Made by a program: the position numbers and the translations under genes. Positions 1 to 54,088 of a DNA stretch of 64,000 bases are shown one piece after another. Source of the stretch: Hysterangium stoloniferum (lineage: Eukaryota; Basidiomycota; Agaricomycetes; Hysterangiales; Hysterangiaceae); the NCBI GenBank assembly GCA_015178975.1, contig WHVD01000262.1, forward strand, positions 22,278 to 86,277, given 5' to 3'. Below the pieces are notes generated by a model. That model was given only the letters and a program-made list of their open reading frames with translations, searched no databases and was not told the DNA's origin. The number at the start of each line of letters is the position of its first letter. The first letter of the stretch is position 1.

Positions 1-66
1 CATATAAAGCCAGGAGGTCCTTGGTTCAATCCCAGGCTCAGTCAGTTCTTTTCTATGCCTTTAACA
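1..66 (+). mobile_element. TRIM-T LTR, 3' end only (copy T1)
   Basis: This matches the last 66 bp of LTR-T copies elsewhere in the window: the second half of the tRNA-like unit (B box GGTTCAATCCC at about 22-32), a T-run, then TTTAACA. It lies in the pol-side part of Gyp-G copy 1, and the related sequence of Gyp-G copy 2 near 63200 runs across this point without it. The left end and TSD are outside the window, so solo LTR versus longer element cannot be told. Confidence 0.85.
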
Positions 67-21446: not shown

Positions 21447-21600
21447 TGTTAGAAATGGGAAAATACAATATCTATATGTGACAGACTGTTATAAGACCCA
21501 GGCTTGCCATCAGTTATATAAACTGTTATAAGAGCACAAGTTGGCAACATAAGTCCTTATATATATGTATATATAATCCATCATATAATACTAGACTATA

Positions 21601-21674
21601 GGTCCAGTAGCTCAGTGGTTAAGAGCACCTGCATATAAAGCCAGGAGGTCCTTGGTTCAATCCCAGGCTGGGTC
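21601..21674 (+). tRNA. tRNA-like unit in 5' LTR of T2
   Basis: 74 nt. The acceptor stem GGTCCAG pairs with CTGGGTC (with wobbles), the D arm is GCTC...GAGC and the T arm is CTTGG-TTCAATC-CCAGG. A box TAGCTCAGTGG and B box GGTTCAATCCC fit Pol III promoters, and TTTT follows 4 nt after the end. The anticodon arm is irregular (extra nucleotide; the U33-consistent reading gives AUA), so I treat it as a tRNA-derived unit, not a decoding tRNA. Confidence 0.8.
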
Positions 21675-21918
21675 AATTCTTTTCTATGCCTTTAACAGGT
21701 TATGGGCCCCGTTCAGCTTCATCTGCTGCGTAGGGTATAGACTAGATATTGATTTCAGGGGAAGTGTTAGAAATGGGAAAATACAATATCTATATGTGAC
21801 AGACTGTTATAAGACCCAGGCTTGCCATCAGGTATATAAACTGTTATAAGAGCACAAGTTGGCAACATAAGTCCTTATATATATGTATATATAATCCATC
21901 ATATAATACTAGACTATA

Positions 21919-21992
21919 GGTCCAGTAGCTCAGTGGTTAAGAGCACCTGCATATAAAGCCAGGAGGTCCTTGGTTCAATCCCAGGCTGGGTC
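21919..21992 (+). tRNA. tRNA-like unit in 3' LTR of T2
   Basis: Same 74-nt unit as in the 5' LTR, with intact A and B boxes and a following T-run. Confidence 0.8.
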
Positions 21993-23816
21993 AATTCTTT
22001 TCTATGCCTTTAACAGCTGGTTGTACCTTCCACCATTCACCAGGTTGCTTTGGAACACGCTGAGAGCGACGAAGCTGTGGTTCTGGTGCAGGTGGAGGAG
22101 GTAGTTGAATGGGTTCAGGAAGTGCAGGAATCTGAGCAGGAGGTGCAGGAATATAAGCAGGAGGTGCAGGAATATGAGTAGGAGGGACAGAAATATCATT
22201 ATCCTCCTCTACTTCTGGCACAAATAAAGGAATGTCAGAGTTTGGTATATTTGGGAAAAGCCTAATATTAGGCATTGGTCCAGTAGTAGATAGACCAGGA
22301 AAGTGGCGTTCATCAAATACAGCCCGTTCAGAGATGATAAACTTCTTTGTAACAGGGTTGTAGAATTGCCAACCTTTGTATCCCACAGGATAGCCTAGAA
22401 AGAGGCATTTCTCCATGTGTGACTGAAGTGACTTCCTTTTGTCCTTTTGAATGTAAACATAGGCAGTACACCCCCACACTCGCAAGTTGCTCACATCTGG
22501 TTTCTATTTGTACCATTGCTCATAGGGTGTAGTTTTAGGCAATGGTGTAGTAGGCAGACGATTCCATACATAGACATAAGATGCCACAGCATGATTCCAG
22601 AATGAGGCAGGCATACGCGCTTCATGCATCATGGCAGTGACATGATCAGCCAAGGTACGATTGGCTCGTTCTGCAACTCCATTCTGTTGAGGGCGATTGC
22701 GAGTAGTATGACGGCGTGCTATTCCACATTCATCTGTAAACTTGATGAAAGCATTTGACATGTATTCACCCCCTTTGTCATCCTGCAGAGCTTTGACCTT
22801 GCAACCCAGAAGATTCTCAGCATAAGCTTTGTATCTCCTGAATGCTTCAAATGCATCACTCTTCCGTTTTAAGAACAGAACAGCTCGCAACTTGGTGCAA
22901 TCATCAATGAAGGTTATCCAGTAGTGATAACCCTCAGTTGTTTGCACAGGAAGTGGTCCATGTAGATCACTATGAATAAGCTCAAGTGGTGTCTGAGATT
23001 GACTTGGTGAGGTAGGAAATGGATTGGCAGTCATTTTGCCAGCAAGGCAAGGTTCACAGATAGGATCAGGTTGTTCCTTTGAGTCAAGGTTTAAGCCAAC
23101 CACCAATCCTTCTCTGATCATCTTCTGGACATCAGCATAGCTGTGATGTCCAAGACGGCGATGCCAGAGATTGATATCAAAGGGGAGAGTGGAGGCAGCA
23201 CCAGCTTGCTCAATAATAGGTGCAGTGGCACCATTGAGGATGCCTGCATTCTGTGCAGTAACTCTGGCTGTAAACAAAGTCTGGCCAGAGAGTTTGAAAT
23301 GCATGGTTGTTCGATCAATGTGTATGAGTAGTCCTTTGTGTCTTGTGAGATAAAGACAAGACAATAGGTTACTGCGCAGTTGTGGTACATGCAAAACTCT
23401 TGTAAGCTCCACAGATCGCGATTTCCTTCCATTTATAACTGGGTTGAATACCACAGAACCAACTCCTGCAGAGTAGATAACAGTATGATCTGCTAACTTG
23501 ATTGGGACACATAATGGTGTGTAGTTACGCAGCCAATGACTATGAGGAGTCATATGACTACTAGCACCTGTATCAGCAAGCCAATCATAGTCAGAACCAT
23601 TCTGCAGGGTGGAGGAATCGGATGAGGAGAAAGCAAGTGCATTTCCACTATATTCAACATTGTTCTGAGACATTGTCTTCTGAGGCCTATTTGGCTTTTT
23701 CTTTCCTTTAGCACGATTGGTAAGGACACTCTCCTGTGCTTCCTGCTGCTTCTTGATGAAGCGATGACACTTGTCCATAGTATGGTTGGTCATGGAGCAG
23801 AAAGCACATTTGAGAA

Positions 23817-24060
23817 TGTTAGAAAACATGAGTAATGTAGAAAATGAATAGCCAGACTGGGGATTGAACCCAGGATCTCTCGATTACATAACGAAGGTGT
23901 TAACCACTACACCATCTGACCTTGGGTAGGTTTGGTCTTACACTGTACTTAAGGATATAACCCTAAGTGCCATTCCTATTAGATCATATACACACTGAAC
24001 TCAGAGCTGTACACCATATGGTCCCAGTTGGAACAATGGTTGGTATTATATAATCTAACA
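23817..24060 (-). mobile_element. Solo LTR-S: a second tRNA-bearing LTR family
   Basis: 244 bp, TGTTAGATTATAT...TTTTCTAACA on the minus strand, with perfect TSD GAGAA (23812-23816, 24061-24065). No visible similarity to LTR-T outside the tRNA-like part and the ends. Inserted in Cop1-C just upstream of the zinc knuckle. Size, ends, TSD and an embedded tRNA-like unit mirror LTR-T. Confidence 0.85.
23850..23921 (-). tRNA. tRNA-like unit in LTR-S
   Basis: 72 nt on the minus strand. The acceptor GGTCAGA pairs with TCTGGCT, the D arm is GTGT...ACAC and the T arm is CTGGG-TTCAATC-CCCAG (all pairs). A box TGGTGTAGTGG; B box GGTTCAATCCC; TTTT shortly downstream. The anticodon arm does not fold into a standard 5+7+5 shape. 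Different tRNA ancestor from the one in LTR-T. Confidence 0.78.
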
Positions 24061-24771: not shown

Positions 24772-25022
24772 TGTTAAAGGCATAGAAAAGAATTGACCCA
24801 GCCTGGGATTGAACCAAGGACCTCCTGGCTTTATATGCAGGTGCTCTTAACCACTGAGCTACTGGACCTATAGTCTAGTATTATATGATGGATTATATAT
24901 ACACATATATAAGGACTTATGTTACCAACTTGTGCTCTTATAACAGTTTATATAACTGATGGCAAACCTGGGTCTTATAACAGTCTGTCACATATAGATA
25001 TTGTATTTTCCCATTTCTAACA
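24772..25022 (-). mobile_element. Solo LTR-T (T3)
   Basis: 251 bp with TSD CAAAG (24767-24771, 25023-25027) in the Gag-protease linker of Cop2-2. Confidence 0.93.
24795..24868 (-). tRNA. tRNA-like unit in T3
   Basis: Same unit as in T2, on the minus strand; A and B boxes intact. Confidence 0.75.
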
Positions 25023-25627: not shown

Positions 25628-25878
25628 TGTTAAAGGCATAGAAAAAAATTGACCCAGCCTGGGATTGAACCAAGGACCTCCTGGCTTTATATGCAGGTGC
25701 TCTTAACCACTGAGCTACTGGACCTATAGTCTAGTATTATATGATGGATTATATATACATATATATAAGGACTTGTGATGCCAACTTGTGCTCTTATAAC
25801 AGTTTATATAACTGATGGCAAGCCTGGGTCTTATAACAGTCTGTCATATATAGATATTGTATTTTCCCATTTCTAACA
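25628..25878 (-). mobile_element. Solo LTR-T (T4) inside LTR A7
   Basis: 251 bp with TSD AAGTG (25623-25627, 25879-25883). It shows that TRIM-T moved after this LTR-A copy had inserted. Confidence 0.93.
25651..25724 (-). tRNA. tRNA-like unit in T4
   Basis: Same unit as in T2, on the minus strand. Its downstream A-rich plus-strand stretch is a seven-base T-run on the transcribed strand. Confidence 0.75.
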
Positions 25879-27025: not shown

Positions 27026-27691
27026 TGTTAAAACTGCCTCCACTGTCTCCAAGACCTTCTGGAACCTTCTAGAACCTTCTAGAAGCTTCCAGCATGTTCC
27101 AGAGTATTCCCAGTTCATTTCCCATGACAGCTGTCAATCAGCTGTCACTTTGTATTCCAGCTGTCAATCAGCTGTCAGTTTCCATTCAAGCTGTCAATCA
27201 GCTGTCACTTATGACAGCTGTCAACCAGCTGTGAACCAGCTGTCACTTATGACAGCTGACAAGCCTACTGATGTATAACATATATAAGCTTGTAGTTAGT
27301 GACCTGAATAGCAACAACTTTCCTCAGACTTGTGTGTGTCACGTGTCACAGTAAGTCACAGGTCACCTTTAACAGGTTATGGGCCCCGTGAGCTTGGTGC
27401 GCTGCATAGGGTATAGACTAGATATTGATTTCAGGGGAAGTGTTAGAAATGGGAAAATACAATATCTATATGTGACACACTGTTATAAGACCCAGGTTTG
27501 CCATCAGTTATATAAGCTGTTATAAGAGCACAAGTTGGCATCATAAGTCCATATATATATGTATATATAATCCATCATATAATACTAGACCATAGGTCCA
27601 GTAGCTCAGTGGTTAAGAGCACCTGCATATAAAGCCAGGAGGTCCTTGGTTCAATCCCAGGCTGGGTCAATTCTTTTCTATGCCTTTAACA
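27026..27691 (+). mobile_element. Chimeric element: 5' LTR-A, TRIM-T interior, 3' LTR-T
   Basis: 27026-27374 is a complete 349-bp Cop1 LTR-A (A8). 27375-27440 is the 66-bp TRIM-T interior, which matches the T8/T9 interior by eye. 27441-27691 is a complete LTR-T (T5). A single TSD TTACA (27021-27025, 27692-27696) brackets the whole, and removing it restores the Cop2 frame KGWMFYNPLTKK. So two unlike LTRs arrived, or now sit, as one unit at one target site. Confidence 0.92.
27595..27668 (+). tRNA. tRNA-like unit in T5
   Basis: Same unit as in T2, plus strand; both boxes intact. Confidence 0.75.
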
Positions 27692-31541: not shown

Positions 31542-31890
31542 TGTTAAATGTGACCTGTGACTTACTGTGACACGTGACACACACAAGTCTGAGGAAAGTT
31601 GTTACTATTCAGGTCACTAACTACAAGCTTATATATGTTATACATCAGTAGGCTTGTCAGCTGTCATAAGTGACAGCTGGTTGACAGCTGGTTGACAGCT
31701 GTCATAAGTGACAGCTGATTGACAGCTTGAATGGAAACTGACAGCTGATTGACAGCTGGAATACAAAGTGACAGCTGATTGACAGCTGTCATGGGAAATG
31801 AACTGGGAATACCCTGGAACATGCTGGAAGCTTCTAGAAGGTTCTAGAAGGTTCCAGAAGGTTTTGGAGACAGTGGAGGCAGTTTTAACA
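31542..31890 (-). repeat. Cop1-E 3' LTR (LTR-A, A10)
   Basis: 349 bp, matches A11 over its whole length by eye. Confidence 0.95.
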
Positions 31891-31985
31891 GACCCCCCTG
31901 ATCTCACATGTCTCCAAAGAAAAAGAAACAGAGAGAGAGAGAGAGACTTTGCTAAACTACAGAGAGTAAGAAAGAAAACAAGAAA

Positions 31986-34900
31986 CTAAGTCCTTATACC
32001 CATTCCATCACGGCAAAATTGAACCTTGGGAGTAGATAGAGGCTTGGTTAGAATATCTGCAATTTGTTCTGCAGTAGGAATATAGGAAGGAGCAATACAC
32101 TTGGCATTTACAGCATCCCTAAGCCAATAGTAGCGCAGGTCAAGATGTTTCATCCTTCCATGATGCTCAGGGTTCTTAGCAACACTGATGGCAGACTGGT
32201 TGTCAATGTGTAGAGTGGAGGGTTGATCAACTTGGTAGCCAAATTCACCTAGGATTTGCCGCATCCAGGCAATCTCCTTGCCAGCTTCTACAGCAGAGAC
32301 AAATTCTGCTTCAGTTGTAGAAAGTGTGACAATACTTTGCAGTTTACTACTCCAGCCAATAGCACCTCCAGCCATCATAGTCACATAACCCCCAGTGGAT
32401 CTTCCAGAATCAATACAATCACCATGAGCAGCATCAGTGTATGTGGTGAATAATTCAGAGCCACATTTGCCAGAGTAATGCAACTTGTAATCCAGTGTAC
32501 CTTTTAGGTATCTGAACAAGTGCTTCACTGCTGTCCAATGCTTTGGTCCAGGATTGCCATTAAAACGTGCCAAGTAGGACACAGTATAAGCAATATCTGG
32601 ACGGGTCATAGTAGCCAGATATTGTAAAGACCCAACAGCACTGAGATAAGGAACACTACGCATGAAATCCACCTCTGCAGCATTCTCAGGACCCATTTCT
32701 TTGGAAAGAGATGTACCAGGTGTCATAGGTGTGAGAACTGGATGACAGTCAGACATGTTATAACGCTCAAGCATGTTGAGGATAAACTGTCGCTGATCAA
32801 GAGTAAGGAGACGCTTAGAGCGATCTCTGCCAACTCCCACACCAAGTAAATAAACAGTGGGTCCAAGATCACGGCATTTGAAATGCAGGGACAATTGCTT
32901 GACAGCTTTGTCAATGGCAAGAGTGGACTTGGATGCAAATGTAATATCATCAATGTAAATGGGTACAAAGATCTTGACCTCTCCATTTGAATAAATGTAA
33001 ACAGAGGTATCAGATTCAATTCGTTTGAACTCCATTTCAGTAAGTGCACCATGTAATTTGATGTTCCATTGACGAGATCCCTGCTTGAGACCATAAAGTG
33101 ATTTCAAGAGTCTGAGAACCTTATTAGGACCTCCTTGATGGAAGCCTTCAGGTTGTCTCATATAAATTGTCTCATCAAGGTCACCATGAGTGAAAGCGGC
33201 AGAAATATCAACAGAGCGCAAGTCCATGTCTTCAATGGCAGCTAGGGCCAGAATCAAACGCAGAGTGGCAGGTCTAAAAGTAGGTGCAAACACTTCATTA
33301 TAGTCAATGCCAGGACGTTGTGAGTATCCTTTGGCAACAAGACGAGCTTTATAACGCTCAATTGTGCCATCTGCATTGTGTTTGACTTTAAATACCCAAC
33401 CAGAACCAATTGCCTTTGCACCAACTGGAAGATCAACAAGTTCCCATGTCTTGTTCTCTACCAGTGTACTATACTCTGCATTGATAGCTTCTTGCCATTT
33501 ATCTGCATCATCACCTTTCATAGCCTGCTTGTAGTTTTGTGGATCAGCAGTTGAAGCTGTTCCAACAAACTGTACTTCCTCATAATCAATGTCTTCATCA
33601 TCATCTTCAGCTAGAGCTGGAGCTGGTTGTACCTTCCACCATTCACCAGGTTGCTTTGGAACACGCTGAGAGCGACGAAGCTGTGGTTCTGGTGCAGGTG
33701 GAGGAGGTAGTTGAATGGGTTCAGGAAGTGCAGGAATCTGAGCAGGAGGTGCAGGAATCTGAACAGGAGGTGCAGGAATATAAGCAGGAGGTGCAGGAAT
33801 ATGAGTAGGAGGGACAGAAATATCATTATCCCCCTCTACTTCTGGCACAAATAAAGGAATGTCAGAGTTTGGTATATTTGGGAAAAGCCTAATATTAGGC
33901 ATTGGTCCAGTAGTAGATAGACCAGGAAAATGGCGTTCATCAAATACAGCCCGTTCAGAAATGATAAACTTCTTTGTAACAGGGTTGTAGAATTGCCAAC
34001 CTTTGTATCCCACAGGATAGCCTAGAAAGAGGCATTTCTCCATGTGCGACTGAAGTGACTTCCTTTTGTCCTTTTGAATGTAAACATAGGCAGTACACCC
34101 CCACACTCGCAAGTTGCTCACATCTGGTTTCTGCTTGTACCATTGCTCATAGGGTGTAGTTTTAGGCAATGGTGCAGTAGGCAGACGATTCCATACATAG
34201 ACATAAGATGTCACAGCATGGTTCCAGAAAGAAGCAGGCATACGCGCCTCATGCATCATGGCAGTGACATGATCAGCCATAGTGCGATTGGCTCTTTCTG
34301 CAACTCCATTCTGTTGAGGGCGATTGCGAGTAGTATGGCGGCGTACTATTCCACATTCATCTGTAAACTTGATAAAGGCATTTGACATATACTCCCCCCC
34401 TTTGTCATCCTGTAGAGCTTTGACCTTGCAACCCAGAAGATTCTCAGCATAAGCTTTGTATCTCCTGAATGCTTCAAATGCATCACTCTTCCGTTTCAAG
34501 AACAGAACAGCTCGCAACTTGGTGCAATCATCAATAAAGGTTATCCAGTAGTGGTAACCCTCAGTTGTTTGCACAGGAAGTGGTCCATGTAGATCACTAT
34601 GAATAAGTTCAAGTGGTGTCTGAGAATGACTTGGTGAGATAGGGAATGGACTAGCAGTCATTTTGCCAGCAAGGCAAGGTTCACAGATAGGATCAGGTTG
34701 TTCCTTTGAGTCAAGGTTTAAGCCAACCACCAATCCTTCTCTGATCATCTTCTGGACATCAGCATAGCTGTGGTGTCCAAGACGGCGATGCCAGAGATTG
34801 ATATCAAAGGGAAGGGTGGAGACAGCACCAGCTTGCTCAATAATAGGTGCAGTGACACCATTGAGGATACCTGCATTCTGTGCAGTAACTCTGGCTGTAA

Positions 34901-36113
34901 ACATAGTCTGTCCAGAGTGTTTGAAATGCATTGTTGTTCGATCAATGTGTATGAGTAATCCTTTGTGCCTTGTGAGATAAAGACAAGACAGTAGGTTACT
35001 GTGCAGTTGTGGTACATGCAAAACTCTTGTAAGCTCCACAGATCGCGATTTCCTTCCATTTATAACTGGGTTGAATACCACAGAACCAACTCCTGCAGAG
35101 TAGATAACAGTGTGATCTGCTAACTTGATTGGGACACATAATGGTGTGTAGTTACGCAGCCAATGACTATGAGGAGTCATATGACTACTAGCACCTGTAT
35201 CAGCAAGCCAATCATAGTCAGAACCATTCTGCAGGGTGGAGGAATCGGATGAGGAGAAAGCAAGTGCATTTCCAGTATATTCAACATTGTTCTGAGACAT
35301 TGTCTTCTGAGGCCTATTTGGCTTCTTCTTCCCTTTAGCACGATTGGTAAGGACACTCTCCTGTGCTTCCTGCTGCTTCTTAATGAAGCGATGACACTTG
35401 TCCATAGTATGGTTGGTCATAGAGCAGAAAGTACATTTGAGAAATGCAGTGGATGCATTGCCCTTTACAGTAAGTGCAGATGCAACTGCAGGAGCTTGTG
35501 AAGCCCGATGACGGCGTTGTGACTCTTCTGTGACAAAAGCTTGTTGGATAGTAGCCTTGTCCAGCTTGTCCATCAGAAGGAGAGAAGAGGCAAAGTTGTC
35601 AAACTGCTCAGGAAGTGCCCTGATCATTGCCATTGATGCAAGTTCCTCATCAAGTTTGGCAAGATCAAAATTCAATGGGCGCAGATCCTGGATGGCACGG
35701 ATGGCTAGATCCACCCGATTCATCAGAGTTTGCAAATTCTCATTCTCTTCCTTTCTGATGGAGAAGAGATCATCATACGCATTGAAGCGCATGCCAGGGC
35801 GCTTCTGCAAGTGTACATCACACAGACTGGTCCACATCTTGACCGGATCACCCTCAATCCCTTTAAGATGAATCTTTTGATCATCCTCAACACTCAAGTA
35901 CATCCAACCTGCTGCTTTGTCTAACTTGAGAGCCCAAGCATCAAATGCAGTTTGCTGAGCCTCTGTGGGAGATGAGGATAGTGCAGGTGCAATGGAGGTG
36001 GCCTCAACAATGCGCCAGACACCCTGGGCACGAAGCCAAGCCTGCATCTCACCAGACCAGGTGTTGTAGTTATGAGAGTTGAGTTTAGGGAATTGGGGGA
36101 TGGAAGATGACAT
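31986..36113 (-). CDS. gag-pol: Cop1-E Gag-Pol polyprotein (1,375 aa)
   Basis: The start is ATG at 36113 (MSSSIPQFPK); an upstream in-frame TTG is less likely because Cop1-A and Cop1-D start at the same ATG. Gag is ~1-225; CCHC knuckle CTFCSMTNHTMDKC 227-240; protease D-T-G 305-307; pre-integrase H-H-C-C 442-480; integrase Asp 507, Asp ~569, Glu ~606; proline repeat 769-800; RT ~850-1130 with YIDD 1053-1056; RNase H Asp ~1226, Glu ~1268, Asp ~1303. All catalytic residues are present and no stop occurs. No frameshift separates Gag and Pol, as is usual for many Copia elements, so another way of making excess Gag would be needed. It ends DGMGIRT, about 95 bp before the 3' LTR, with a (GA)n tract between. 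Confidence 0.96.
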   Translation of the reverse strand: MSSSIPQFPKLNSHNYNTWSGEMQAWLRAQGVWRIVEATSIAPALSSSPTEAQQTAFDAWALKLDKAAGWMYLSVEDDQKIHLKGIEGDPVKMWTSLCDVHLQKRPGMRFNAYDDLFSIRKEENENLQTLMNRVDLAIRAIQDLRPLNFDLAKLDEELASMAMIRALPEQFDNFASSLLLMDKLDKATIQQAFVTEESQRRHRASQAPAVASALTVKGNASTAFLKCTFCSMTNHTMDKCHRFIKKQQEAQESVLTNRAKGKKKPNRPQKTMSQNNVEYTGNALAFSSSDSSTLQNGSDYDWLADTGASSHMTPHSHWLRNYTPLCVPIKLADHTVIYSAGVGSVVFNPVINGRKSRSVELTRVLHVPQLHSNLLSCLYLTRHKGLLIHIDRTTMHFKHSGQTMFTARVTAQNAGILNGVTAPIIEQAGAVSTLPFDINLWHRRLGHHSYADVQKMIREGLVVGLNLDSKEQPDPICEPCLAGKMTASPFPISPSHSQTPLELIHSDLHGPLPVQTTEGYHYWITFIDDCTKLRAVLFLKRKSDAFEAFRRYKAYAENLLGCKVKALQDDKGGEYMSNAFIKFTDECGIVRRHTTRNRPQQNGVAERANRTMADHVTAMMHEARMPASFWNHAVTSYVYVWNRLPTAPLPKTTPYEQWYKQKPDVSNLRVWGCTAYVYIQKDKRKSLQSHMEKCLFLGYPVGYKGWQFYNPVTKKFIISERAVFDERHFPGLSTTGPMPNIRLFPNIPNSDIPLFVPEVEGDNDISVPPTHIPAPPAYIPAPPVQIPAPPAQIPALPEPIQLPPPPAPEPQLRRSQRVPKQPGEWWKVQPAPALAEDDDEDIDYEEVQFVGTASTADPQNYKQAMKGDDADKWQEAINAEYSTLVENKTWELVDLPVGAKAIGSGWVFKVKHNADGTIERYKARLVAKGYSQRPGIDYNEVFAPTFRPATLRLILALAAIEDMDLRSVDISAAFTHGDLDETIYMRQPEGFHQGGPNKVLRLLKSLYGLKQGSRQWNIKLHGALTEMEFKRIESDTSVYIYSNGEVKIFVPIYIDDITFASKSTLAIDKAVKQLSLHFKCRDLGPTVYLLGVGVGRDRSKRLLTLDQRQFILNMLERYNMSDCHPVLTPMTPGTSLSKEMGPENAAEVDFMRSVPYLSAVGSLQYLATMTRPDIAYTVSYLARFNGNPGPKHWTAVKHLFRYLKGTLDYKLHYSGKCGSELFTTYTDAAHGDCIDSGRSTGGYVTMMAGGAIGWSSKLQSIVTLSTTEAEFVSAVEAGKEIAWMRQILGEFGYQVDQPSTLHIDNQSAISVAKNPEHHGRMKHLDLRYYWLRDAVNAKCIAPSYIPTAEQIADILTKPLSTPKVQFCRDGMGIRT

Positions 36114-36355
36114 TGTAGTATACACAGAGCAAACTCGCAAAGAAGTTCAGAAAAAAGGTATTTAACTCGAGGTCCAGACGGTAGTCTCGAGGGAAACTCA
36201 GCCTTAGTGGCGTACAAGTTCCTCCCTACTAGCAACAGCAATAAGGCTGGGCCTGGCAGGGGAATATAAAAGTATAGGCTGAAACTTACTCAAAAGAAGC
36301 GAGTTTGCAAAACGTTATACTGTACTAGAGCGCTTAGAGCGCGGGGCCCATAACC

Positions 36356-36704
36356 TGTTAAATGTGACCTGTGACTTACTGTGACACGTGACACACACAA
36401 GTCTGAGGAAAGTTGTTACTATTCAGGTCACTAACTACAAGCTTATATATGTTATACATCAGTAGGCTTGTCAGCTGTCATAAGTGACAGCTGGTTGACA
36501 GCTGGTTGACAGCTGTCATAAGTGACAGCTGATTGACAGCTTGAATGGAAACTGACAGCTGATTGACAGCTGGAATACAAAGTGACAGCTGATTGACAGC
36601 TGTCATGGGAAATGAACTGGGAATACCCTGGAACATGCTGGAAGCTTCTAGAAGGTTCTAGAAGGTTCCAGAAGGTTTTGGAGACAGTGGAGGCAGTTTT
36701 AACA
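36356..36704 (-). repeat. Cop1-E 5' LTR (LTR-A, A11)
   Basis: 349 bp promoter-bearing LTR. On the minus strand, in order: heat-shock element, CAGCTG repeats, TATATAAG (36442-36449), CACGTG, end TTTAACA, then the primer site. Confidence 0.95.
36641..36673 (-). promoter_or_regulatory. Seven-unit heat-shock element in LTR-A
   Basis: 33 bp made only of alternating TTC and GAA triplets, each separated by exactly 2 bp: seven contiguous units on the minus strand. This is the binding pattern of heat-shock factor trimers (three units already suffice). It lies about 190 bp upstream of the TATA box. It is present in most LTR-A copies (for example 17048-17080, 29201-29233) and shortened in A14. Confidence 0.8.
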
Positions 36705-38909: not shown

Positions 38910-39124
38910 GCTTTCACCCATGGTGACCTTGATGAGACAATCTATATGAGACAACCTGAAGGCTTCCATCTGTTAGAAATGGGAAAATACAATATCTATA
39001 TGTGACAAACTGTTATAAGACCCAGGCTTGCCATCAGTTATATAAGCTGTTATAAGAGCACAAGTTGGCATCATAAGTCCTTATATATATGTATATATAA
39101 TCCATCATATAATACTAGACTATA

Positions 39125-39198
39125 GGTCCAGTAGCTCAGTGGTTAAGAGTACCTGCATATAAAGCCAGGAGGTCCTTGGTTCAATCCCAGGCTGGGTC
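39125..39198 (+). tRNA. tRNA-like unit in T6
   Basis: Same unit as T2; one change (GAGT for GAGC) weakens the D stem. Confidence 0.72.
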
Positions 39199-39441
39199 AA
39201 TTCTTTTCTATGCCTTTAACAGGTTATGGGCCCCGTTCGCTTGGTGCGCTGCATAGGGTATAGACTAGATATTGATTTCAGGGGAAGTGTTAGAAATGGG
39301 AAAATACAATATCTATATGTGACAAACTGTTATAAGACCCAGGCTTGCCATCAGTTATATAAGCTGTTATAAGAGCACAAGTTGGCATCATAAGTCCTTA
39401 TATATATGTATATATAATCCATCATATAATACTAGACTATA

Positions 39442-39515
39442 GGTCCAGTAGCTCAGTGGTTAAGAGTACCTGCATATAAAGCCAGGAGGTCCTTGGTTCA
39501 ATCCCAGGCTGGGTC
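39442..39515 (+). tRNA. tRNA-like unit in T7
   Basis: Same as the T6 unit, including the GAGT change, as expected for LTRs of one insertion. Confidence 0.72.
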
Positions 39516-41059
39516 AATTCTTTTCTATGCCTTTAACACCATCAAGGAGGTCCTAATAAGGTTCTCAGACTCTTGAAATCACTTTATGGTCTCAAGCAGG
39601 GATCTCGTCAATGGAACATCAAGTTACATGGTGCACTTACTGAAATGGAGTTCAAACGAATTGAATCTGATACCTCTGTTTACATTTATTCAAATGGAGA
39701 GGTGAAGATCTTTGTACCCATTTACATTGATGATATTACATTTGCATCCAAGTCCACTCTTGCCATTGACAAAGCTGTCAAGCAATTGTCCCTGCATTTC
39801 AAATGCCGTGATCTTGGACCCACTGTTTATTTACTTGGTGTAGGAGTTGGCAGAGATCGCTCTAAGCGTCTCCTTACTCTTGATCAGCGACAATTTATTC
39901 TCAACATGCTTGAGCGTTATAACATGTCTGACTGTCATCCAGTTCTCACACCTATGACACCTGGTACATCTCTTTCCAAAGAAATGGGTCCTGAGAATGC
40001 TGCAGAGGTGGATTTCATGCATAGTGTTCCTTATCTCAGTGCTGTTGGGTCTTTACAATACCTGGCTACTATGACCCGTCCAGATATTGCTTATACTGTG
40101 TCCTACTTGGCACGTTTTAATTGCAATCCTGGACCCAAGCATTGGACAGCAGTGAAGCACTTGTTCAGATACCTAAAAGGTACACTGGATTACAAGTTGC
40201 ATTACTCTGGTAAATGTGGCTCTGAATTATTCACCACATACACTGATGCTGCTCATGGTGATTGTATTGATTCTGGAAGATCCACTGGGGGTTATGTGAC
40301 TATGATGGCTGGAGGTGCTATTGGCTGGAGTAGTAAACTGCAAAGTATTGTCACACTTTCTACAACTGAAGCAGAATTTGTCTCTGCTGTAGAAGCTGGC
40401 AAGGAGATTGCCTGGATGCGGCAAATCCTAGGTGAATTTGGCTACCAAGTTGATCAACCCTCCACTCTACACATTGACAACCAGTCTGCCATCAGTGTTG
40501 CTAAGAACCCTGAGCATCATGGAAGGATGAAACATCTTGACCTGCGCTACTATTGGCTTAGGGATGCTGTAAATGCCAAGTGTATTGCTCCTTCCTATAT
40601 TCCTACTGCAGAACAAATTGCAGATATTCTAACCAAGCCTCTATCTACTCCCAAGGTTCAATTTTGCCGTGATGGAATGGGTATAAGGACTTAGTTTCTT
40701 GTTTTCTTTCTTACTCTCTGTAGTTTAGCAAAGTCTCTCTCTCTGTCTCTCTCTCTGTTTCTTTTTCTTTGGAGACATGTGAGATCAGGGGGGTCTGTTA
40801 AAACTGCCTCCACTGTCTCCAAGACCTTCTGGAACCTTCTAGAACCTTCTAGAAGCTTCCAGCATGTTCCAGAGTATTCCCAGTTCATTTCCCATGACAG
40901 CTGTCTGTTAGAAATGGGAAAATACAATATCTATATGTGACAGACTGTTATAAGACCCAGGTTTGCCATCAGTTATATAAACTGTTATAAGAGCACAAGT
41001 TGGCAACATAAGTCCTTATATATATGTATATATAATCCATCATATAATACTAGACTATA

Positions 41060-41133
41060 GGTCCAGTAGCTCAGTGGTTAAGAGCACCTGCATATAAAGC
41101 CAGGAGGTCCTTGGTTCAATCCCAGGCTGGGTC
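41060..41133 (+). tRNA. tRNA-like unit in T8
   Basis: Same unit as T2; both boxes intact. Confidence 0.74.
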
Positions 41134-41378
41134 AATTCTTTTCTATACCTTTAACAGGTTATGGGCCCCGTGAGCTTGGTGCGCTGCATAGGGTATAGAC
41201 TAGATATTGATTTCAGGGGAAGTGTTAGAAATGGGAAAATACAATATCTATATGTGACAGACTGTTATAAGACCCAGGTTTGCCATCAGTTATATAAACT
41301 GTTATAAGAGCACAAGTTGGCAACATAAGTCCTTATATATATATATATATATAATCCATCATATAATACTAGACTATA

Positions 41379-41452
41379 GGTCCAGTAGCTCAGTGGTTAA
41401 AAGCACCTGCATATAAAGCCAGGAGGTCCTTGGTTCAATCCTAGGCTGGGTC
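41379..41452 (+). tRNA. tRNA-like unit in T9
   Basis: Same unit with two changes: AAAAGC in the D arm and TAGGC for CAGGC at the T-stem end, which alters the B box (GGTTCAATCCT). Probably a decayed Pol III site. Confidence 0.68.
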
Positions 41453-41475
41453 AATTCTTTTCTATGTCTTTAACA

Positions 41476-42912: not shown

Positions 42913-43164
42913 TGTTAATGGCATAGAAAAGAATTGACCCAGCCTGGGATTGAACCAAGGACCTCCTGGCTTTATATGCAGGTGCTTTTAACCACTGAGC
43001 TACTGGACCTATAGTCTAGTATTATATGATGGATTATATATACATATATATAAGGACTTATGATGCCAACTTGTGCTCTTATAACAGCTTATATAACTGA
43101 TGGCAAACCTGGGTCTTATAACAGTCTGTCACATATAGATATTGTATTTTTCCCATTTCTAACA
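42913..43164 (-). mobile_element. Solo LTR-T (T10)
   Basis: 252 bp with TSD CGATC (42908-42912, 43165-43169) in Chromo-C2. Confidence 0.93.
42936..43009 (-). tRNA. tRNA-like unit in T10
   Basis: Same unit as T2 on the minus strand, with one change in the D arm (AAAAGC). Confidence 0.72.
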
Positions 43165-49273: not shown

Positions 49274-50251
49274 GTGAATGGTGGAAGGTACAACCAGCTC
49301 CAGCTCCAGCTGAGAATGGTGATAAGGATATTGATTATGAGCAAGTACAGTTTGTTGGAACAGCTTCAACTGCTGATCCACAAAACTACAAGCAGGCTAT
49401 GAAAGGTGATGATGCAGATAAATGGCAAGAAGCTGTCAATGCAGAGTACAATACATTGGTAGAAAACAAGACATGGGAACTTGTTGACCTTCCAGTTGGT
49501 GTAAAGGCAATTGGTTCAGGTTGGGTGTTTAAAGTTAAACACAATGCAGATGGGACAATTGAGTGTTATAAAGCTCGCCTTGTTGCCAAAGGATATTCAC
49601 AATGTCCTGGCATTGACTACAATAAAGTGTTTGCATCTACTTTTAGACCTGCCACTCTGCGTTTAATTCTGGCCCTAGCTGCCATTGAAGACATGGATTT
49701 GCACTCTGTTGACATTTCTACTGTTTTCACTCATGGTGATCTTGATGAGACAATTTATATGAGACAACCTGAAGGCTTCTATCAAGGAGGTCCTAATAAG
49801 GTTCTCAGACTCTTGAAATCACTCTATGGTCTCAAGCAGTCATCTCGTCAATGGAACATCAAATTACATGGTGCACTTACTGAAATGGACTTCAAATGAA
49901 TTGAATATGATACCTCTGTTTACATTTATTCAAATGGAGAGGTCAAGATCTTTGTGCCCATTTACATTGATAATATTACATTTGCATCCAAGTCCACTCC
50001 TGCCATTGACAAAGCTGTCAAGCAATTGTCCCTGCATTTCAAATGTTGGGATCTTGGACCTACTATTTATTTACTTGGTGTGGGAGTTGGCAGAGATCGC
50101 TCTAAGCATCTTCTTACTCTTGATCTGCGACAGTTTATTCTCAACATGCTTGAGTGTTATAACATGTCTGACTGTCATCCAGTTCTCACACCTATGACAT
50201 CTGGTACATCCCTTTCCAAAGAAATGGGTCCTGAGAATGCTGCAGAGGTGG
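49274..50251 (+). pseudogene. pol: Cop1-G reverse transcriptase
   Basis: GEWWKVQPAPAP to HGALTEMDFK-stop (49897-49899), then continuing to PENAAEV at 50251. The RT active site reads YIDNITFAS instead of YIDDITFAS. Other replacements relative to Cop1-E: ERYKARL to ECYKARL, SQRPG to SQCPG, RSVDIS to HSVDIS, SKRLL to SKHLL. It is cut before RNase H by LTR-M2. Confidence 0.9.
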
Positions 50252-50680
50252 TGTCACGAATTGATTATTCTTCGATAAAGTCGAATAATATTCTATTAAC
50301 CGAACTCGAAAGCCTCGTTCGACGAAGTATATATTCGCCCTGTTGATGAAGTAAGAGGCTATTACCAGTCGCGAGAACTCATGGAAGTAATTGTCGAAGA
50401 AGTTACGACAAAGTAGATTACTAATATCACTAATATACAGATATTTCGACTGACTTTCCTCGTTTCTTTCATAGCCCTTTTATGCTTTTCGTTGTATCGT
50501 TATGACTATGTTATGAACTAATTATGAAATCATATATGACATCGAAATGAGACATGTTGAAAGAGATTCGATGGTGTCGATTAATGTTCGGTTTGTCGAG
50601 TTGAATTCGATAGGTTGAAGAGTTGTTGAAAGTTACCTTTGAATGTTTGTGACAATACATGACATGTGACAGTTGTGACA
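50252..50680 (-). repeat. Gyp-M 3' LTR (LTR-M2, 429 bp)
   Basis: TGTCACAACTG...CGTGACA on the minus strand, directly after the purine tract AAAAGGAGGATAC (50681-50693). The outer flank is Cop1-G RT (GGTGG). Partial second copy at 12557-12951. Confidence 0.83.
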
Positions 50681-50781
50681 GTATCCTCCTTTTGTGACTG
50701 AGCCCATGAGGTTGGAGTTTGAAAAGTTTTTTTATTTTATTTTTATTTTTAAGTTACATCTATTTTCGTGTTCTTCAATCA

Positions 50782-51616
50782 ATGTCTGATATAGAAGTCG
50801 ATCAACTCAAATCAGGATCCAAGTTTTTGGGTTTTGAGGATAGGAATGAGATTGTTGATGCAGTTGGTAAGTCGTTTCTGGGATTTCTTTAAAATTAGTT
50901 AATTAGTTATTTTTTAGAAGAAATTTCCAAAAAACGGATTGAAGATTGCGAAGAACCATACAATAAGGCGACTCGTAAAGGAATTGGGATGCAATGGGAA
51001 TTTGAGGCAAAATCGGATAATTCGTAATTTTTTGGTTTTGTTGAATTTTGTTGAATTTTGGTTATTCATTTTTCCCAGTTGCACAATGTGTTTTAACATG
51101 AATTTTGTGTGCAAGAAAAGTAACGCGTCGTCGAATTGCGATCCGTGCAATTGATTGCATTGGGCTTGCTACTGGACCGTGAATAGGCCAGCCAGAAAAC
51201 CGCGTCATAATCGAAAAAAGAGTCGAAACGTCATCGAAGAATCGGAAGACGAAAACGAAGATGGTAGTCCAGGAATTCAAAAGCTTGGACAAAGGAAAAA
51301 TAGTCGTCACAAGGTCATGTCAAGAATGTCGAATTTTTCTAGACAGTCGAGAAGGTCGGAACATCGGTCGGATAAGGACTTTGAGAAAGAGATAAAATCG
51401 ATTGGCAAAAGGATGTCGAAATTAGAAGATACCATGGAAGACTTAATCGGTGAGGTGAAAGCGTTCAGAAAGGATTTTTCGGTTTTGTCGAAGAAATTGG
51501 TCGAAAGTGGTGATTTTAGTGAAGAGACTGACATTAGTGTGAATAGTGGTAGATTTAGGAGGGTGTGGTTTGATAAGATGGAGGAATTGAGAGAGGAAGG
51601 AATTGAAGATTTGTAG
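50782..51616 (+). CDS. Antisense accessory gene of Gyp-M: Zn2Cys6-like, coiled-coil protein
   Basis: ATG 50782 (MSDIEVDQLKSGSKFLGFED). Intron 1 is 50867-50917 (GTAAGT..TAG) and intron 2 is 51024-51078 (GTAATT..CAG). The joined frame gives EEISKKRIEDCEEPYNK, then cysteines spaced C-x2-C-x6-C-x8-C-x2-C-x6-C, the fungal Zn(II)2Cys6 pattern. Within the last x6 one codon is TGA (51152-51154). Beyond it the same frame runs to 51616: a basic patch, an acidic stretch (EESEDENEDG) and a heptad-like region (KRMSKLEDTMEDLIGEVKAF). Exon phases agree at both introns. It lies opposite to pol between integrase and the 3' LTR. Role unknown; DNA binding is only suggested by the Cys pattern. The TGA may be decay (CGA or TGG origin) or may lie in an unseen intron. 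Confidence 0.68.
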
Positions 51617-51723
51617 TTACTTTTAAATTTTGATATAATTGATGTTTTTTGCGTTTTGATATGTTTTTCGATTTTGTCGAAAAGATGTCGAAATAAGTGT
51701 CGAAAGATAGTTGAATGAGATTT

Positions 51724-52794
51724 TTAATGTCGTGGAAGATTTGGATATTTTTGGTGAAATTCTTCGATAAGGTCGAAAGCATGTTCGAGATCTTGAGAGC
51801 CTAACCACAAAGTTTCTTCGTCTGTTCCTTCGTAACCTAACCAAGCAACTAAATATCGTAATGAATCCTTATATCTTTTATCGAATTTTGAATCCAAAAT
51901 TTCTCGAATTTCATATTCGGGTTCTTCTTCAACATAAATCGGAGGAGGAGGAGGTTGTTTTCGATTTGGGAAAGTATTGGGATAAAATGGTTCTAACATC
52001 GAAACGTGAAAGACGGGATGAATTCCTTTGAGGTGATTGGGGAGTTTTAATGTATATGAATGAGATCCTGGTTGAGCAATGATTTCAAATGGGCCTAATA
52101 ATTTTTCCGATAATTTTTTTGATGGTCGAGTCGTTCGAATAAAGTCGGATCGTATGAAGACTTGAGAATGGATCGGAAAGTCGAAAGACTCTTTTCGATG
52201 TATGTCGGAATATTTTTGATAATGTATTTGTGCTTTCTGAATATTTGATTTGAGATGTTTATGTAGAGCTTCGAGATCTGTCGTATAATCGCGAGCTAGA
52301 GCGGAAGCTAGATCTTTTTCAGGGTGAATTTCTAACAATGGATGATAACCTTTATTAGCAAAAAATGGCGTTTCACCAGTTGTTTCGGAAGGTGCATTGT
52401 TGTAAGCGAATTCAGCTAAAGGAAGTAATTCGGCCCAATTGTCTTGTTGATAATTGGAATATATTCGTAAATATTGTTCGAGGGTTTGATTGACTCGTTC
52501 GGTTTGTCCATCACCTTCAGGATGATAATAACCGGAAGTGAAATGCAATTTCATGTCGAGTGCTGTTCCGAGAGATCGAAAGAAATGCGACACGAATTCG
52601 GATCCTCGATCAGAAGTTACATGACTGGGGACTCCATGTTTTGAAAAGACATGTAACACGAAAAGTCGAGCAAGTTCGGGAGCGTTGATCGTAGTATAAG
52701 TTGGAATGAATATTGCTTGTTTCGAAAGTCGATCAACGATTACGAGTATTGAGTCGTAACCATTTGAGGTCAGTAATTGTTCGATAAAGTCCAT
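51724..52794 (-). pseudogene. pol: Gyp-M integrase core and chromodomain
   Basis: 356 open codons: MDFIEQLLTSNGYDSILVIVD (first Asp), VTSDRGSEFVSHFF (second), HPEGDGQTERVNQTLEQYL (Glu), the GPFEIIAQPGSHSYTLKLP C-terminal motif, then a chromodomain (EPEYEIREILDSKFDKR ... YLVAWLGYEGTDEETLW). All catalytic residues are present. It belongs to the longer Pol and is cut off from its N-terminus by a nonsense codon just upstream. Confidence 0.88.
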
Positions 52795-53430
52795 TGAGAT
52801 CGAATGCCATGGTCGAAGAGGGATCAGAAGTTGCTTAAGTAATCCAACGGGTCGATGTCGTGGAGTTTTTGATTTTGTACACGTTACGCATGATTAAATA
52901 AAACTTTGAATACCTTGTCGGAGTCGTGGCCAAAAGAAATCTCGGTATATTGTTCGATACGTTTTCGTTTGACCGAAATGGCCTGCAGTAATATGATCGT
53001 GTTGTGATTGAAGAACTCGAAGTTGGAGAGTTTGATAATCGGGAACATAAATTCTGTTTCGGAAACATAAAAAGTCTTGTTCGTTCTTTTGCCAATCTTC
53101 TTCGGTACTGTCGGAAATCTGTCAAATCTTGTCGAGAGTAAATTGATCTTCTTTTTGAGCTTTAAATATATCTTTCAATAGTTGATCTGTATCCATAATA
53201 AGAGTAGCTTTTCTCGCTATTGGAAGATAGTATGTTGCATGCAAGGAAGCTTGAATTTGCTCATTCGTAAATACCGGTCGAAGATTAGTCGGATTCTTTT
53301 TCGAGTAGTTGGGTTCATTCGGATAAACGTCATTTCTTCTGGAAAGAACATCTGTTTTCAAATTTAGTTTCCCCGGTCGAAATCGAATAATCAAATTAAA
53401 GGTCGATAAATATTTTGCCCATCAAGCTTG
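52795..53430 (-). pseudogene. pol: Gyp-M RNase H end and integrase zinc region
   Basis: Reads RFRPGKLNLKTDVLSRRND (end of RNase H), a spacer, then in another frame QHDHITAGHFGQTKT ... FFWPRL ... CVTCTKSK, the H-H-C-C zinc site of integrase. A stop lies just before CVTC and a frame change at about 53122. Disrupted. Confidence 0.8.
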
Positions 53431-53991
53431 TCATCGAGACAAAATTCGAGTTGTCGCAAAATATTTGAGATTCTTGTGATCCATTAAAACTTCAATTGGT
53501 TCTTTTGTTCCTTTGAAATAATGTCGCCAAATTTTGAAAGATTCGAATATTGCCAATAATTCTTTATCGTAAGTGTCGTAATTGATTTCGGAAGTCGAAA
53601 GAGTTCTTGAATGATAAGCGACTGGATGAATTTCATTATCGGGAGTTTGCATAGAAAATATTGAAGCTATGGCATGATCAGAAGCATCAGTTTCGAGTAT
53701 AGGTTTATAGTCTGGATTCCAATGAATTAAAATTGGAGCTGTAGTAAATTCTTTTTTCAAATAGTTAAATGCATATCGACATTTTTCATCGAAATGCCAT
53801 TGAACCTTTTTTCGAGTAAGTTGAGTCAACGGTAAAACAATTTCAGAATAACTTGGAATAAATCTTCGATAGAAATTTGCAAATCCTAAAAATGATTGAA
53901 TGTCGCGGACTTTTTGCGGTTCAGGCCAGTCTTGAATAACTTTGATTTTTTCTTCGTCCATATATACACCTTGAGGAGAAATAACATACAT
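53431..53991 (-). pseudogene. pol: Gyp-M RT thumb and RNase H
   Basis: 186 codons: DIQSFLGFANFYRRFIPSYS (RT connection), PILETDASDHAIASIFSMQ (RNase H first Asp), NYDTYDKELLAIFESFKIW, MDHKNLKYF. Frame breaks on both sides separate it from RT proper and from 53394. Confidence 0.86.
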
Positions 53992-54088
53992 ATCCTAGAA
54001 ACTCGACACTGGTTTTGTGAAATTTGCATTTTTCGGGTTTTGCAAATAATCGATTTTGTCGAAGCCGTCGAAGAACTTCTCGAACTTG

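Follow-up and report, generated by a model that had tools for sequence, protein, structure and literature searches.

The LTR family T in the genome of Hysterangium stoloniferum, a false truffle of the Hysterangiales (Agaricomycetes), is very probably a Helenus-type TRIM copied and inserted by a Copia element, X. Its RNA was probably made by Pol III, and hybrids between the two elements would have arisen by plus-strand transfer at a shared primer-binding site (PBS). Judged by its sequence, T is a new member of Helenus in a new host order, Hysterangiales. It also seems fairly probable that the genome directly documents the reverse transcription of a Pol III-type TRIM inside the particles of its Copia partner. 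In this reading, the two elements exchanged LTRs when plus strands were transferred between molecules at the half-tRNA PBS that they share, and hybrids formed on the PBS side only. This concerns the autonomous mover of TRIMs with a small-RNA promoter: in a single genome, a PBS common to both elements and a set of TSD-flanked hybrids indicate a named partner next to the TRIM.

The T family and its tRNA-like unit

The window, i.e. the whole 64-kb stretch of DNA that was analysed, was searched with blastn using the LTR at 21447-21697 as query. Ten full LTR-T copies with 97-100% identity and one edge fragment were recovered. They formed three two-LTR elements, three solos, one hybrid and the edge fragment, the same set as listed in a preliminary description of the sequence. 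The two-LTR form of 251 + 66/67 + 251 bp given there was confirmed, with one copy of 253 bp. The two-LTR element of 569 bp was non-coding. Its interior of 66/67 bp held little besides the PBS and the polypurine tract, in agreement with the earlier statement that only these two sites lie between the LTRs. The termini of LTR-T were TGTTAG...TAACA. The following features were located in the window, including a solo LTR of a second family, T2:

1-66, plus strand: LTR-T 3' end at the window edge
21447-22015, plus strand: two-LTR TRIM (T-INT-T), 569 bp, LTRs differing at 1 of 251 positions, without TSD
21447-21697, plus strand: 5' LTR-T of element 21447-22015, TGTTAG...TAACA, 251 bp
21601-21675, plus strand: tRNA-like unit of the 5' LTR-T (ARAGORN Tyr-ata; Rfam RF00005, 48.6 bits)
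21608-21618, plus strand: box A TAGCTCAGTGG, invariant in 76 copies
21653-21663, plus strand: box B TGGTTCAATCC, invariant in 76 copies
21680-21683, plus strand: TTTT tract shortly downstream of the tRNA-like unit, without variation in 76 copies
21698-21711, plus strand: PBS GGTTATGGGCCCCG, 14-nt complement of the host initiator tRNA-Met anticodon arm
21757-21764, plus strand: polypurine tract AGGGGAAG, recognised from the sequence
21765-22015, plus strand: 3' LTR-T of element 21447-22015, with tRNA-like unit at 21919-21993
23817-24060, minus strand: solo LTR (244 bp) of T2, a second Helenus-type family, whose tRNA-Thr(tgt)-like unit spans 23849-23921
24772-25022, minus strand: solo LTR-T, TSD CTTTG
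25628-25878, minus strand: solo LTR-T sitting in an LTR-X, TSD CACTT
38971-39538, plus strand: two-LTR TRIM with identical LTRs, TSD CCATC
40906-41475, plus strand: two-LTR TRIM adjoining a truncated LTR-X, without TSD
42913-43164, minus strand: solo LTR-T, TSD GATCG

TSDs of 5 bp flanked all three solos in the window, one of the three two-LTR elements (38971-39538, CCATC) and the hybrid at 27026-27691 (TTACA); none was found at 21447-22015 or at 40906-41475. The edge piece at 1-66 probably belongs to a full LTR that extends beyond the window, since TRIM-to-T junctions lie at C182:21764 and 22083, just before the window start at C182:22278. Among the catalogued copies, TSDs were found at 13 of 20 solos, at 4 of 6 two-LTR elements and at both longer arrays, which hold four and five LTRs. 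At another locus (L030:1501-1933), two LTR-T in inverted orientation were located 5 bp apart, one of them truncated.

ARAGORN called a tRNA in all ten full LTR-T of the window, and the units scored 39-49 bits with the Rfam tRNA model against a cut-off of 29. The tRNA-like unit that the preliminary description had placed in every full LTR was thus recovered by both programs, with a length of 75 nt as called instead of the 74 nt given there. The anticodon loop measured 8 nt and the anticodon was called as ata. All 11 Rfam hits in the window were tRNA, and the 5S rRNA that characterises Cassandra LTRs was not among them. The searched assembly comprised 111 Mb in 554 contigs. LTR-T gave at least 64 listed matches, and the true number lies above 64 because just 40 of 318 candidates were scored. 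From fetched loci, 80 copies were obtained after duplicates had been removed by flanks alone, 76 of them distinct by genome coordinate. A tRNA was called in 80 of 80, so the loss of the tRNA-like arms outside the window, named in the preliminary description as one of the observations that would speak against its reading, was not encountered. The closest source candidate for the unit was tRNA-Cys(gca), with 51 of 72 positions matching, among 31 tRNA genes compared, a small sample and not the full complement; this match is too weak to name the origin of the unit. A search for the unit in viral contigs gave no match.

Box A, box B and TTTT had no variable site in the 76 copies. Variable sites numbered 27 of 154 in U3, 6 of 75 in the tRNA-like unit and 6 of 22 in the remainder of the LTR. 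That the tRNA part varied less had a permutation P of 0.02 (0.05 with the AT repeat left out; 0.005 in the set of 80 copies) in a test that is weak, as it treats copies as unrelated, ignoring shared ancestry, and as the copies were picked by similarity. A TATA-like stretch was present in U3 upstream of the tRNA-like unit. It would suit a reading that is possible though rather doubtful, with the same TRIM and partner, in which Pol II transcribes T from an ordinary LTR promoter and the tRNA-like unit is either a passenger or has a role in packaging or targeting. T-runs were not significantly depleted in the remainder of the TRIM (P 0.42), and their shortage was rejected as proof of Pol III use. 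By the standard of this host, TTTT makes a short terminator: it is shorter than the first T-run downstream of 7 of 8 host tRNA genes examined, and a Pol III transcript of T would have to pass the first TTTT. Both points are in line with Pol II transcription, and Pol III function is unproven also according to Kojima 2024 (PMC10886601). However, the invariance of box A, box B and TTTT in 76 copies argues against this reading, as do two further LTR families in the genome that have a tRNA-like unit at the same place and TTTT soon after it. Nothing consistent was seen, in the few host tRNA genes inspected, of an upstream TATA that is common to them and matches the LTR.

Hybrids between T and the Copia element X

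The chimera partner named in the preliminary description was real and proved the most informative part of that description. Its other LTR, LTR-X (27026-27374), is the LTR of a Copia element in the same window, located at 31542-36704 on the minus strand:

27026-27691, plus strand: hybrid X-INT-T, composed of LTR-X (27026-27374), the TRIM interior and LTR-T (27441-27691), TSD TTACA
31542-36704, minus strand: Copia element flanked by two identical LTR-X of 349 bp, TSD GGAGG and 14 nt of the PBS in common with the TRIM; proposed autonomous partner
31986-36140, minus strand: Copia open frame, 1384 aa, containing domains for gag, integrase and reverse transcriptase (RVT_2)

The Copia frame looks intact, and Copia X appears to move TRIM T. 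LTR-X (e.g. at 27026-27374) contains many imperfect CAGCTGTCA-type repeats, and its length differs among copies.

Three of four pattern sites for host initiator tRNA-Met (iMet) genes were tRNA-Met. The anticodon arm of the host iMet was complementary to the PBS over 14 nt in the TRIM and over 17 nt in the Copia element; the first 14 nt of the interior are identical in the two elements. The PBS of T2 complements the iMet 3' end over 14 nt, CCA included. LTR-to-PBS junctions with the iMet anticodon-arm PBS numbered 103. Among the 100 listed, 31 had other LTR ends, which suggests that several more families use the same primer site.

A query joining the X end to the TRIM interior was matched at full length in 16 of 40 scored matches; the remaining 24 ended right after the PBS. 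X-INT-T was present at no fewer than 16 places, and all 16 continued into LTR-T, in one case truncated. Eight had their own 5-bp TSD: TTACA (in the window), CCTGG, GATTT, ACGCG, ATCCA, CTGTC, AAAGA and TTTAT. Two further ones were part of TSD-flanked composites, X-INT-T-Copia-X on C259 (ATCAC) and T-Copia-X-INT-T on C2 (TTTTT, low complexity). A TSD was not found at the other six (L033, L037, L040, L042, L045 and the truncated one). Junctions in the opposite direction, from T into the Copia interior, accounted for 6 of 57 T-to-PBS junctions, each confirmed by alignment. TSDs were found at three of these six, comprising one of three simple T-Copia-X elements (AGAGA, AG-rich flank) and two of three composites; two of the three TSDs (AGAGA, TTTTT) lie in low-complexity flanks. 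The X end was X-specific in 10 of 12 hybrids, which places the switch within the final 8 nt of the LTR or within the 14 nt of PBS common to both elements. The other two hybrids had a T-like base close to the X end.

On the polypurine side, a pattern admitting all four combinations gave 140 junctions, and the 100 listed were all cognate. Neither of the two exact hybrid junctions was found genome-wide on this side, in searches with exact patterns, which mutated junctions would escape. Upstream of the 76 T LTRs, the TRIM polypurine tract was present in 35 cases and the Copia polypurine tract in none. T2, which has a different PBS, was used as a negative control. Its 20 exact junctions comprised 18 with its own end, one with a variant of its own end and one other; an X or T end was found at 0 of 20, under a pattern that excluded A as the first base. 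Three X-like junctions, on C88, C540 and, with a G, C58, were rejected as X-INT-T hybrids after fetching. The first was a piece of Copia leader next to T, and the other two belonged to T3, another tRNA-bearing LTR family.

Proposed transfer step and alternatives

In normal reverse transcription, plus-strand strong-stop DNA re-anneals at the PBS. Because the TRIM and the Copia element have the PBS in common, plus-strand strong-stop DNA from either element can pair with the other element's minus strand. The observed anatomy, TSDs, junctions and PBS matches are consistent with the following course. The T RNA would probably be a Pol III transcript driven by the tRNA-like unit, with its boxes A and B, in the 5' LTR. 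Pol III would read through the weak TTTT of the 5' LTR and stop at the TTTT of the 3' LTR, which would make R roughly 80 nt long and the genomic RNA about 400 nt. This RNA would enter Copia particles, be primed by the iMet anticodon arm, be reverse transcribed and be integrated with 5-bp TSDs; the PBS and the TSDs are directly visible in the copies. Copia strong-stop DNA on the TRIM minus strand would yield X-INT-T, and the reverse would yield T-Copia-X. A plus strand that reaches its own PBS and then anneals elsewhere would yield composites and T-INT-T-INT-T arrays. Polypurine-side hybrids would not be expected under plus-strand transfer. The hybrids on the PBS side fit such intermolecular transfer, which points to TRIM and Copia RNAs in the same particles. 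From the sequences we infer that the two RNAs were packaged together, that plus strands were transferred between the elements and that T was transcribed by Pol III.

Two interior subtypes alternated in the 4-LTR array (TSD GGTTG), and LTR subtypes were mixed in the 5-LTR array (TSD TCTAG). This mixture argues against clonal expansion of one element and speaks for the assembly of both arrays from different templates before insertion, with recombination among copies as a possible alternative.

Hybrid formation by homologous or microhomology recombination of unintegrated nuclear cDNAs, or by template switching at R as proposed by Sabot and Schulman, is considered unlikely. TSDs are predicted by these routes too, and the T-like base in 2 of 12 hybrids indicates that the switch was not always strictly within the PBS. 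A switch at R, however, predicts chimeric LTRs, whereas the X and T LTRs of the hybrids are otherwise whole, and both hybrid directions join at the PBS, the site of plus-strand transfer. Post-integration recombination of neighbouring elements, as thought for most LTR complexes and favoured for Cassandra arrays by Kalendar 2020 (PMC7215508), would agree with the dense nesting of copies and with several complexes without TSDs, but is improbable given matching 5-bp TSDs at 8 of 16 hybrids and two composites, each expected by chance at about 1 in 1000, and given that X and T are similar only over about 8 end bases and the 14-nt PBS.

If plus-strand transfer at the shared PBS is the true route, the same step would let TRIMs change their partner or primer site, as suggested by the PBS types of T2 and T3. 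The count of PBS-side versus polypurine-side hybrids is a simple genomic test that is applicable to other TRIMs.

Relation to known elements and further tRNA-bearing families

TRIMs bearing tRNA sequences were named Helenus, with TRIMp3 as the proposed class, by Kojima 2024 (PMC10886601). That source gives 113 families in Pucciniales and others in Agaricomycetes, animals and Selaginella. Their PBSs are described there as mostly complementary to the tRNA anticodon loop and fungal TSDs as 5 bp long, with some fungal families primed by the initiator tRNA anticodon arm. Pol III drive is an inference in the same paper, Copia was inferred for fungal Helenus from PBS likeness and one cross-species match, and how the dependence on the partner is maintained is stated to be not known (PMC10886601).

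T shares with Helenus as published a size below 1 kb, a tRNA-like unit with boxes A and B in each LTR, only a PBS and a polypurine tract between the LTRs, an iMet anticodon-arm PBS, 5-bp TSDs and the presence of several families in one genome. The preliminary description was right in reading T as a fungal TRIM with a tRNA-like unit in each LTR, analogous to Cassandra. Its statement that no described family is like this did not hold, as Helenus has the same anatomy, and T as an undescribed kind is ruled out by the Helenus literature (Kojima 2024, PMC10886601). Mobilisation by Copia, as proposed for fungal Helenus, is suggested for T by the shared PBS and the TSD-flanked hybrids with Copia X. 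T differs from published Helenus in its host order, Hysterangiales, and in a partner indicated by hybrids within the same genome. In the main text of Kojima 2024 (PMC10886601), the strings 'chimer' and 'Hysterangium' do not occur, and Table 1 lists no host from Hysterangiales. In the open-licence literature searched, no report of hybrids between a Helenus TRIM and its partner was recognised. Rice Dasheng and RIRE2 are a precedent for hybrid elements.

Cassandra, a plant TRIM, resembles T in that each LTR carries the unit of a small-RNA gene, LTRs occur in tandem arrays and no proteins are encoded (Kalendar 2020, PMC7215508). It carries 5S in its LTRs and its partner is called unknown in that source, whereas T carries a tRNA and has an indicated partner. 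TSD-flanked multi-LTR complexes were attributed to template switching at R by Sabot and Schulman 2007 (PMC1950507). Like the T composites, they are multi-LTR structures with TSDs and are read as co-packaging of two RNAs. They involved related elements and a switch at R, whereas here a TRIM and a Copia element meet at the PBS, whichever of the two comes first, and exact hybrids on the polypurine side were absent. Reverse transcription primed inside the initiator tRNA instead of at its 3' end is known for Ty5 and Drosophila Copia, as cited in PMC10886601; they share this internal priming with T but are autonomous. Wheat Cereba and Quinta were proposed as an autonomous/non-autonomous pair from shared motifs, according to PMC11302176.

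T2 has an interior of 169 bp, with at least 40 matches listed of 424 candidates, and one T2 element, at L103, was flanked by the TSD CAACT. The third family, T3 (L130:173-480, L129:377-490), has a 128-bp LTR with a tRNA-like unit (Ile-tat in L130) and an anticodon-arm PBS. T3 and T2 were 84% identical over 95 bp of LTR and 88% over 68 bp of interior, and their PBS types differ. In L130, the 5' LTR of T3 was of another type, giving a hybrid-like structure. Many intron-bearing tRNA-Lys(ctt)-like genes of 94-95 nt were also observed (L101, L102), clustered on C112 at about 0.91-1.22 Mb and often paired ~420 bp apart; they could be gene arrays or another repeat. Within the window, GC content fell to 0.37 at 50001-54000, with a GC skew of ~0.2, and Gypsy-type frames were present in this stretch.
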